Assembly (NCBI GenBank): GCA_009782775.1
Contig: WRIL01000002.1
Coordinates: forward strand, 62,001-126,000
DNA: 64,000 bases
Direction: 5' to 3'
DNA from: Desulfovibrionaceae bacterium
GTDB taxonomy: Bacteria > Desulfobacterota > Desulfovibrionia > Desulfovibrionales > Desulfovibrionaceae
Shown here: positions 7,699-45,066 of the stretch, piece after piece
Numbering within the stretch: the first letter of the stretch is position 1
Layout: the number at the start of each line of letters is the position of its first letter
Notes under the pieces: model-generated
Seen by the model: the letters and a program-made list of their open reading frames with translations, nothing else
Told to the model about the DNA's origin: nothing
The model's database searches: none
Made by a program: the position numbers and the translations under genes

Positions 7699-7705
7699 GG
7701 AAAAA

Positions 7706-7802
7706 AGCTGGGGGAGTCCTGGGTGAATCTTCGGCCCCGGACTGAGAGTGGCCCTGCCAGACCCCTTGAACCTGAAGCAGCGTTACTGCCGTAGGGAAGC
7801 TG
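7706..7802 (+). promoter_or_regulatory. TPP riboswitch (THI element)
   Basis: The conserved core of the thiamine pyrophosphate aptamer is present in order: GGGGGAGTCC, the pyrimidine-sensing CTGAGAG (7742-7748), then ACCCCTTGAACCTGAAGCAG and GTTACTGCCGTAGGGA. AGCT at each end can close the P1 helix. It lies directly before an intrinsic terminator and thiS, so rising TPP should shut off the thiSGHED operon. Confidence 0.93.
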
Positions 7803-7812
7803 AATTTATGGG

Positions 7813-7842
7813 ACGGCTTCTTCCGGGCGGGAAGCCGTTTTT
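7813..7842 (+). terminator. Riboswitch expression-platform terminator before thiS
   Basis: The stem ACGGCTTC (7813-7820) / GAAGCCGT (7831-7838) with a 10-base loop runs straight into TTTTT (7838-7842). The thiS ATG is only three bases further on. The best ribosome-site candidate (GGGCGGGAAG) lies in the loop and 3' arm, so the hairpin could block translation as well as end transcription. Confidence 0.8.
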
Positions 7843-42329: not shown

Positions 42330-44853
42330 GGCAGAACCTCCTGCCAGCGCCGGCGGCCACGGCTTCTTTGGCCTGGGCCATGGTCTCGCGCATGCGCTGG
42401 CGGTTATAGCCGCAAGTCGGGTCTAGAGCTTCGCCGGGCTGCTTGCCGCTGCCGAAGAGATACAGGGCCAGGCCGAGGTTGAGAGCCAGCATGTCGGATA
42501 CGGCCCTGGAGCCTTGTCCTGAAAGAGCTTCTCGCAACACCTCGGCGGCATGTTCCGGCCCATCCACCGTCAGATCTTGTTCCGTGCAGGGAGCGATGCC
42601 GTACTCGGCGGGATTGAGGCGGCCGGGCCGGCATTCCAGGCCGTGGACGAAGATCATGGAGGCTTCGCCTAGGGGGGTGATCTCGTCATAATTCCCGGCC
42701 CCATGTACCACTACCCCGGCCTCCGGCTCCAAGCGGGCCAGAGCCGCGGCCACCAGGGAGAGTTGCGTCTGGTCCGCGACCCCCAGGAAGCGGTGCGTGG
42801 GGCGGGCCGGGTTGACTAGGGGGCCAAGGATGTTGAACAGGGTGCGCATGCCTAGCTCCCGGCGTACCGGCATGACATGGAGAAAGGATGGATGATAGAG
42901 GGGAGCGAAGAAAAAGACGAAACCCTCCCGTTCCAGGGTTTCGGCCACGGCCTCCGGCGGGATGTCCAGGGGAAGGCCGAGTTGTTCCAACACATCCGCG
43001 CTGCCGCAGCTGGAGGAAATCGAGCGGTTGCCGTGCTTGAGCACCTTGTATCCCATGCCGGCCAAGGTCAAAGCGGTGGCCGTGGAGCAGTTGAAAGAAT
43101 GCTTGCCGTCGCCGCCGGTGCCCACGATATCTATCGCCGGGCCGGATACGGACGGTATAGGGACGGCCCTGGCCAGTACGGCATTGACTGCGGCCGCCAC
43201 TTCATCCGGGGTTTCCCCCTTGGCACGCAGACCCAGGAGCAGGGCTCCGGCCTGAGAGTGGGAAAGCTCTCCGTCCATGAGCCGGCTGAATGCCGCTGTA
43301 GCCTCTTCCGGGGAGAGATTCCTTCTGCGGGCCAGGTGTTCCATGATGGCGGACATCTGTACGGGGCCGTCGGTCAGGTTAAGATTTTTCGGGGTTGAGG
43401 GGCGTCCTTCATTTGGAGAGGATGGGGCCTGCCGTCCCGGTTCGCCCGCTCCCATCCGTTCAGGGGGAAGCGTTTTCGGGGTTTCCCGGTCCAGGGTCGC
43501 CTGGGCGATGATTTCGGCCTCGGCGCGGCATTCCGCCCAATTTTTTTCCGGCGTGGAGTCATGGGTGACGGCCGCCCCGGTCTGCCAGCACACGCGCCCG
43601 CCGCGCACCCAGAGGCTGCGGAGGGTGATGCCGAAATCCAGGTGCACGGCCTCCTGGTCCAGGCCGATCCAGCCGATGGCCCCGGCATAAGGTCCGCGCG
43701 GGGCGCGTTCCTCAGCGGCGATAATTTCCATGGCCCGGAGCCTGGGTATGCCGCTGACAGTGCCTGCCGGAAAGGTGGCCGCCAGCGTGTCCAGAGCATC
43801 CCGGCCAGGGGCGAGATCCGCCTGGATGCGCGAGGTCAGCAGCAGCGTATGGGAGAAGTGCTCCACCTCCATGAAACGCTCCAGCCTTACGCTGCCAGGC
43901 CGGGCGATACGCTCTAGGTCCCGGCGTCCGAGCTCCACCAGCAGGGCGTGTTCGTTTCTTTGCTTGGGATCCTGTGGCTCATCTTCAAAGAGGATGTTTT
44001 CAGCGTAGTGCGGTCCGGCGCCGCCCACGGGGCAGAGACACAGGCGTCCGTCCTGGCAGCTGACCAGCACTTCCGGGGAGGCCCCTAGCAAAACTTCGGC
44101 CCTCATATCCGGCAGGCGCATGTAAAACATGTAAGGCGAGGGGCTCAGGCGGCGCAGATGCCGGTACAGGTTGAAGGGTTTTTCTGAAAGAGGGGCGCTA
44201 AAGGGAGCGGAGAGGGTCACCTGGGTGGCCTCTCCCTGGTGGATTAACTTCTTTATCCGGCTCACGGCCTCCACGTATCTGTCCTGGTCCGCCAACGGAG
44301 AAAAAGCCTCCTGGGGAGCGGCCGCCGGGGGCGGGGGAGGAAGGGCTTGCGGCTGTTCATTGTCCAGTAGTAGATCCAGGCGGGTGATGCGGTTGTAGCC
44401 GTGGTCAAAGATAATCAGGGAGCCGGGCAGGGCGAGGGAGGCTTCGGCTTCGGGCGGGGGCAGAAAAGGCGTGTTTTGGGGATCGAACAGGCTGGCCATG
44501 CCGTAGCCGAGCCAGCCGTAAAGAGCCCTGGTGATGGGCGGCTGCGTCGGAATTCCATGGATGCGCAGGGAGGCCAGCAACTGGCGCAGCCCCTGTATAA
44601 AAGGCCGGCCGGCAAGGTCGCGCAGGGGGACGAGGCGTTCGTCGGCCGCGCGGAGTTCCAGGAGCCCCTCCCGGCAGGAGGCGGAGATCAGAAAATCGGT
44701 GCCGATGACGCTGTAACGGCCCCAGCGTCCGTCCACCTCCGCGCTTTCCAGAAGTATCCCTGGAAGGTCTCCGGCCAGGCGTAGAAAAAGCCCTACCGGG
44801 GTTTCCAGGTCACTGTCCAGGATAGTGGCGCGTTGGGTAAAGCTGAATTGCAT
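42322..44853 (-). CDS. trpED: Fused anthranilate synthase component I (TrpE-like) and anthranilate phosphoribosyltransferase (TrpD)
   Basis: An 843-residue fusion. Residues 1-455 are TrpE-like: feedback-site LLESAEVDGRWGRYSVIG, GYGMASLFDP, LLGASPEVLV, VEHFSHT, FPAGTVSGIP. A Pro/Ser-rich linker (about 456-497) joins a complete TrpD (500-843): DIVGTGGDGKHSFNCST, KHGNRSISSSCGSADVLE, RTLFNILGPLVNPARP. No glutamine amidotransferase domain or trpG gene is present. In the TrpE half the usual PIAGTRxRG reads PVGGAGPHY (275-283), LGRND reads LGRRD and GAPK reads GIPR, so catalysis may differ. The ATG at 44853 follows AAGGAG. It is preceded by a leader and attenuator. Confidence 0.92.
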   Translation of the reverse strand: MQFSFTQRATILDSDLETPVGLFLRLAGDLPGILLESAEVDGRWGRYSVIGTDFLISASCREGLLELRAADERLVPLRDLAGRPFIQGLRQLLASLRIHGIPTQPPITRALYGWLGYGMASLFDPQNTPFLPPPEAEASLALPGSLIIFDHGYNRITRLDLLLDNEQPQALPPPPPAAAPQEAFSPLADQDRYVEAVSRIKKLIHQGEATQVTLSAPFSAPLSEKPFNLYRHLRRLSPSPYMFYMRLPDMRAEVLLGASPEVLVSCQDGRLCLCPVGGAGPHYAENILFEDEPQDPKQRNEHALLVELGRRDLERIARPGSVRLERFMEVEHFSHTLLLTSRIQADLAPGRDALDTLAATFPAGTVSGIPRLRAMEIIAAEERAPRGPYAGAIGWIGLDQEAVHLDFGITLRSLWVRGGRVCWQTGAAVTHDSTPEKNWAECRAEAEIIAQATLDRETPKTLPPERMGAGEPGRQAPSSPNEGRPSTPKNLNLTDGPVQMSAIMEHLARRRNLSPEEATAAFSRLMDGELSHSQAGALLLGLRAKGETPDEVAAAVNAVLARAVPIPSVSGPAIDIVGTGGDGKHSFNCSTATALTLAGMGYKVLKHGNRSISSSCGSADVLEQLGLPLDIPPEAVAETLEREGFVFFFAPLYHPSFLHVMPVRRELGMRTLFNILGPLVNPARPTHRFLGVADQTQLSLVAAALARLEPEAGVVVHGAGNYDEITPLGEASMIFVHGLECRPGRLNPAEYGIAPCTEQDLTVDGPEHAAEVLREALSGQGSRAVSDMLALNLGLALYLFGSGKQPGEALDPTCGYNRQRMRETMAQAKEAVAAGAGRRFCRA

Positions 44854-44873: not shown

Positions 44874-44903
44874 AAAAAAAAGGCCGCAAGCTTGCTTGCG
44901 GCC
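44874..44903 (-). terminator. trp attenuator (intrinsic terminator)
   Basis: On the minus strand GGCCGCAAGC-AA-GCTTGCGGCC is a near-perfect hairpin followed by eight T (44881-44874), 20 bases before the trpED start codon. GCGGTC in the leader (around 44947-44942) can pair with GGCCGC of the left arm, giving an alternative antiterminator. Confidence 0.88.
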
Positions 44904-44926
44904 CCTTGATAGCATGGTTTCAGAAT

Positions 44927-45028
44927 TCAGGCATGCACCATGACCGCGCCACTAAAGATCCTCCACCGCCAAAGGGAACGGGTGTTGTCGGCACAAAGGG
45001 CCTTGGAGGGGGGAAAACACATATGCAT
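44927..45028 (-). CDS. trpL: trp leader peptide (TrpL-like)
   Basis: A 33-codon frame between the trp promoter and the attenuator. Residues 19-25 read LWRWRIF, encoded by TTTGG-CGG-TGG, so two Trp codons lie one codon apart. Thirteen bases after the second Trp codon begins the GCGCGGTC segment that can form the antiterminator. The stop lies 24 bases before the terminator stem, as in classical attenuation. There is no good ribosome site at ATG 45028 or 45022. An alternative leader starts at a GTG behind GGAGG near 44952 and has one Trp codon. Confidence 0.65.
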   Translation of the reverse strand: MHMCFPPSKALCADNTRSLWRWRIFSGAVMVHA

Positions 45029-45037
45029 AATGAGTTT

Positions 45038-45066
45038 AGCGTACGCTTGGCTATGGTTTTGGTCAA
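45038..45066 (-). promoter_or_regulatory. Promoter of the trp operon
   Basis: On the minus strand TTGACC (45066-45061) and TACGCT (45043-45038) are 17 bases apart. The -10 box overlaps a perfect palindrome AGCGTACGCT (45047-45038), which could be an operator. It begins 35 bases after the rfaE2 stop. A small GC hairpin with a T7 run between them (45070-45095) may end the upstream transcript. Confidence 0.65.

Follow-up and report, generated by a model that had tools for sequence, protein, structure and literature searches.

The window, by which we mean the whole stretch of 64,000 nucleotides that was analyzed, comes from a Desulfovibrio-like sulfate reducer with Desulfovibrio cuneatus and Desulfovibrio MAGs among its closest named relatives. 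It contains a tryptophan operon with the gene order trpED-C-F-B-A, preceded by a leader region and, upstream of the leader on the same strand, by trpS and the gene for the RfaE adenylyltransferase domain (rfaE2) (Table 1). An earlier note had described a set of regulatory elements without giving a strand; all of them are present at 44874-45066, on the minus strand. The 17-spaced promoter is there as TTGACC-17-TACGCT, with a weak score (8/12), as is the 33-codon leader with its two Trp codons in a Trp-Arg-Trp arrangement. The GCGGTC segment (segment 2) is indeed complementary, with one G-U pair, to the left arm of the terminator, GGCCGC (44903-44898), and the terminator, noted as a 10-bp stem, has a stem of 9-13 bp whose right arm, GCGGCC, is followed by the T8 tract. 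The antiterminator pairs as proposed but is longer than the note had it, since it continues through an inner helix. Likewise, the fused trpED is truly a fusion, but one that joins trpE to trpD(PRT) without trpG.

Table 1. Features of the trp operon and its leader region in the window
Feature	Position	Strand	Remarks
-35 TTGACC	45066-45061	-	weak sigma70-like leader promoter
Promoter spacer			17 nt, between -35 and -10
-10 TACGCT	45043-45038	-	sequence and promoter scan
Palindrome AGCGTACGCT	45047-45038		perfect, 10 bp; overlaps the -10 of the leader promoter
Leader ORF MHMCFPPSKALCADNTRSLWRWRIFSGAVMVHA	45028-44927	-	33 codons, ATG 45028
Alternative in-frame leader ATG	45022	-	
First Trp codon TGG	44971-44969	-	Trp cluster aligned in relatives
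Second Trp codon TGG	44965-44963	-	TGG columns near-invariant in alignment of relatives
Segment 2 GCGGTC	44947-44942	-	5' strand of antiterminator
Antiterminator hairpin	44947-44898	-	GCGGTC/GGCCGC plus inner helix TGGTGCATG/CATG.TATCA
Leader stop TGA	44929-44927	-	
Intrinsic terminator hairpin	44907-44878	-	core arms GGCCGCAAG (44903-44895) and CTTGCGGCC (44890-44882); pair count 97% over 7 relatives; -20.1 kcal/mol in the window scan of terminator-like sites
T8 tract of terminator	44881-44874	-	
trpE Shine-Dalgarno AAGGAG	44864-44859	-	sequence
Fused trpE-trpD(PRT)	44853-42322	-	843 aa, no trpG domain; ATG 44853
trpC	42329-41547	-	
trpF	41593-40886	-	
trpB	40889-39684	-	TIGR00263 above cut-off
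trpA	39696-38920	-	TIGR00262 above cut-off

The two halves of the fusion meet at 43360-43540 (minus strand) with no TrpG between them, and the gap from E to D measures 121 nt in the window versus at least 585 nt in all of the approximately 95 other loci measured. No TrpG/PabA above cut-off was found in the organism's own assembly, which is 85% complete; possibly the anthranilate synthase is ammonia-dependent, or trpG is located in the missing sequence. A search of the same assembly (G000) for prephenate dehydrogenase, by PF02153 or as a TyrA homologue, found none, and a search of the relatives for TrpE gave no trpE match in the congeners G002, G005, and G006; the genus seems to have patchy amino-acid pathways.

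Taken alone, the window offers weak evidence for regulation by the leader, not above chance or only just. The promoter is not among the sites listed by the promoter scanner, the fold of the whole leader is no better than that of shuffles (z = -0.5), and 32% of shuffled segments pair as well as the 6-bp duplex of segment 2 with the terminator arm; swapping or shuffling the window's own duplex was, like the fold z, uninformative by itself. Of 73 sites in the window that loosely resemble terminators, 12 have a WxW motif nearby in some frame. The Rfam model for the Trp leader (RF00513) scores 16.9 bits against a threshold of 41 and has no match in the organism's own genome, and no other Rfam family lies above threshold near the leader site. 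The leader ATG lacks a Shine-Dalgarno sequence in the window and is located only about 3 nt from the predicted transcription start; if this promoter is the one used, the 5' UTR would be about 3 nt long. That the leader is more than a chance arrangement is shown by the comparative data and not by the window.

For the comparison, TrpE was sought in 149 relatives as well as in named genomes and the DNA upstream was read. A Trp cluster followed by a terminator at a spacing of 45-80 nt was found upstream of trpE at approximately 120 distinct loci throughout the order, and cluster and spacing are kept although the genes upstream differ. The close relatives have clusters such as WWW (L002), RWW (L004), WRGFWW (L005), WW (L006), and WRGLWW (L015), and in the alignment the cluster ends the frame at a near-constant distance from the GGCCGC terminator; by inspection, 19 codons separate the ATG from the first Trp codon in the window and 20 in L002. 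The earlier note had named loss of the Trp codons with persistence of the hairpins in close relatives as evidence that would speak against attenuation; the two persist together, but in the congener L003 (G001) a single Trp codon remains in the leader stretch (GLWRQR). Upstream, the relatives have TTGACC/A at 17 ± 1 nt from TAnnnT.

Across 124 distinct attenuators, the cognate duplexes of segment 2 and the terminator arm average -14.65 kcal/mol versus -12.25 ± 0.22 when the arms are permuted, and none of 5000 permutations was as good; the excess holds separately in the free-leader loci and in those loci in which the Trp cluster is the tail of an upstream gene (65 loci, 0/5000). Among seven close relatives the antiterminator is paired in 87% of cells versus 38-48% when it is slid. 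As to the covariation that the earlier note proposed to look for, both strands of the conserved antiterminator vary at pairs 26-85 and 27-84, but for these seven sequences the count was not significant against the shuffle control (72/500 and 88/500). TrpR (PF01371) was found in only one of 39 genomes of the order, within a 736-aa frame, and not in the organism's own genome.

The antiterminator and the terminator are mutually exclusive. In folds of the nascent window RNA, a ribosome held at either Trp codon gives an antiterminator probability of approximately 0.86, while a ribosome that has reached the stop codon masks segment 2 and leaves the terminator as the only hairpin that can form. Without a ribosome, the antiterminator is still favored (0.84), which gives no sign of a strong 1:2 protector hairpin; a stable protector or pause hairpin of this kind is not dominant in the nascent folds of the window. 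The architecture of antiterminator plus inner helix recurs with other letters in L004, L005, L006, L015, and L170. In 88% of 123 cases, half or more of the terminator's 5' arm is taken up by upstream pairing in the nascent folds, and the mean z is -1.32 ± 0.15.

It could be argued that the hairpin is only the 3' terminator of trpS-rfaE2, or that it terminates constitutively within the trp leader, and that the Trp-Arg-Trp ORF arose by chance. The two genes do lie just upstream on the same strand, WxW motifs occur near 12 of the 73 terminator-like sites of the window, and its own fold and duplex statistics are weak. This explanation was already disfavored by the comparison, since the Trp cluster and its spacing to the terminator are kept in relatives with varying upstream genes and segment 2 fits its own terminator arm better than those of others, and we consider it improbable. 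A DNA-binding repressor that acts at the perfect palindrome over the -10 and controls the response to Trp, with the hairpin as a minor addition, is less probable again: TrpR is absent from the genome and nearly so from the order, and by inspection no such palindrome is seen at the promoters of L002-L007. We therefore rejected AGCGTACGCT as an operator. Least probable is that the real leader is a short ORF with a single Trp codon, GTG GCG CGG TCA TGG ... TGA, from approximately 44952. Its GTG is located 7 nt behind a good Shine-Dalgarno sequence (GGAGG), whereas the long leader has none, but neither the GTG nor its frame is conserved in L002 or other relatives, in which the long frame and its Trp cluster are conserved, and a ribosome stalled at the Trp codon of the short ORF would mask segment 2 rather than free it; for these reasons this ORF was rejected as the leader.

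Considering the recurring Trp cluster, its spacing, the cognate antiterminator, and the near-absence of TrpR, ribosome-mediated transcription attenuation at the Trp codons is, with high confidence, the best explanation for control of the trpED-C-F-B-A operon, as the earlier note had read it. RNA polymerase would start at approximately 45031 and a ribosome would translate the leader. With little charged tRNA-Trp available, the ribosome is expected to stop at UGG-CGG-UGG and leave segment 2 free, which could then form the antiterminator with the 5' arm of the terminator and the inner helix before the 3' arm is made, and transcription would proceed into trpE. With ample Trp, the ribosome would reach the stop codon, its footprint covering segment 2, so that the terminator may form and transcription would end at T8. 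Features typical of this class of mechanism are present, namely clustered Trp codons, a terminator before the first structural gene, and a conserved, exclusive antiterminator. Against it speak the missing leader Shine-Dalgarno, the very short predicted 5' UTR, the 8/12 promoter, and the single Trp codon of L003.

Most loci, in all six families of the order that were sampled, have no short leader. There, the Trp cluster is the end of a gene of approximately 260 codons directly upstream of trpE, and a terminator follows this cluster at the same spacing. The matches of this gene are to prephenate dehydrogenase models, below cut-off but in keeping with tyrA. Examples of its end are found in L010 and Nitratidesulfovibrio L173 (both ...VDRAQWWWRSHTERGGVRPS*), L076 (...ALWWWRKQHDAGGPAS*), and L026 (...AQRAGWWWRSS*). 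This TyrA-tail form occurs in the other families of the order and in much of the organism's own family. The window does not belong to it, having a free leader with its own putative promoter, trpS and rfaE2 upstream, and no TyrA found in the assembly. A sigma70-like site of at least 9/12 precedes 23 of the 57 free leaders versus 0 of the 65 TyrA tails. In the TrpE tree, a single clade holds the TyrA-tail types; its root is arbitrarily placed, and transfers (Akkermansia) are likely. The automatic assignment to the two forms is wrong for a few loci; L017, for example, is labelled free in the tree but is really a TyrA tail.

TyrA has a run of at least three Trp residues in 68 of the 72 trp-linked loci with a terminator, 12 of 24 linked loci without one, and 5 of 18 unlinked loci. 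In loci where tyrA and trpE overlap at the tyrA stop, with no remaining terminator, the run reads AWW. Phylogenetically independent pairs for WWW and terminator went the same way in 2.3 cases and the opposite way in 0.1, with a median p of 0.5. Aromatic residues (RWWW, RWW, RWL, WY) are found at the end of unlinked TyrA proteins of the order too, so the WWW tail is in part a protein trait and is alone no proof of regulation. TyrA from outside the order has no such run at the aligned tail (27 loci), with L139 having WGWW. On balance, the trp attenuator of this order probably works normally without a dedicated leader peptide, the ribosome that finishes TyrA being the Trp sensor for a gated aro-tyrA-trp transcript. 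The C-terminal Trp-Trp-Trp of TyrA would be the stall site and the RNA for the subsequent residues the antiterminator, such that a continuous transcript would be gated at the tyrA-trpE junction. The window element may then be regarded as a free-standing relative of this device.

In E. coli, trpL encodes a short leader peptide with adjacent Trp codons, and the 3' half of the antiterminator is shared with the intrinsic terminator. The window element (compare RF00513) resembles it in its Trp-codon leader, in an antiterminator that shares a terminator half, and in the trp operon downstream. It differs in its low Rfam score, in having no clear 1:2 protector/pause hairpin, and in lacking both a TrpR partner and a leader Shine-Dalgarno. 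Alphaproteobacterial and actinobacterial trp leaders are, to our knowledge and without an alignment, unrelated in sequence to that of the window, and we know of no tyrA-tail form among them. They are similar in being leader-peptide trp attenuation outside the enterics, as in peTrpL of S. meliloti (PMC7298713) and in Actinobacteria (PMC1262725). The earlier note held the attenuator to be worth noting in this lineage because such control is best known from enterics; it is found order-wide, usually in the TyrA-tail form, and is already known well outside the enterics.

The supraoperon aroA'>aroB'>aroQ-pheA>aroF>tyrA>[trp operon] of D. vulgaris, which belongs to this order of bacteria, has tyrA followed by the trp operon, as in the TyrA-tail loci, and is listed with a predicted attenuator only at its head, before aroA' (Xie et al., 2005; PMC1173090). 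The passages on it contain no mention of an element like the TyrA-tail one at tyrA-trpE. A broad survey of attenuators covered intergenic regions and short ORFs (PMC2965389), and is therefore unlikely to have picked up a leader that is part of a complete gene. Searches of the full-text literature gave no description of the TyrA-tail form, subscription papers, including comparisons of proteobacterial attenuators, lying outside this scope; the form thus appears new and undescribed, without this being certain, while the free-standing attenuator is of the classic type. With the window element, leader-peptide trp control reaches the Desulfovibrio-like bacteria, in which, TrpR being almost absent, attenuation may be the main Trp control. 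A full-length enzyme gene would be able to double as an attenuation leader, and surveys restricted to short ORFs would miss such leaders. The two forms also hint at how leader peptides and gene tails interconvert and provide a testable case of a protein C-terminus shaped by RNA regulation.

Two leader-terminator units in tandem precede trpE in L011 (G023; WW then WWW), L014 (G040; WW then WRW), and L020 (G007; WW then a single W). A pair of successive leader ORFs is also known from the tandem attenuators of mgtCBR, where signal and genes are different, both units here being Trp leaders (PMC3641672). Akkermansia and other Verrucomicrobia have a TrpE close to that of this group, together with short, Trp-rich frames ahead of a terminator (L174, L177, L178, L188, L197, L205, L229, L233, and L235), with leaders such as SWRWWSYV* in L235 and IWRWRSYV* in L205. 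This combination suggests that the operon was transferred together with its attenuator; the antiterminator is weak in the pairing and nascent-fold tests for several of these loci. The Desulfobacterales-type loci L241 and L243, with a distant TrpE, also have short WWW frames, here followed by a terminator at a longer spacing of approximately 107 nt. Elsewhere in the window, a TPP riboswitch is located at 7700-7814 on the plus strand, scoring 56.1 bits, barely above the Rfam threshold.
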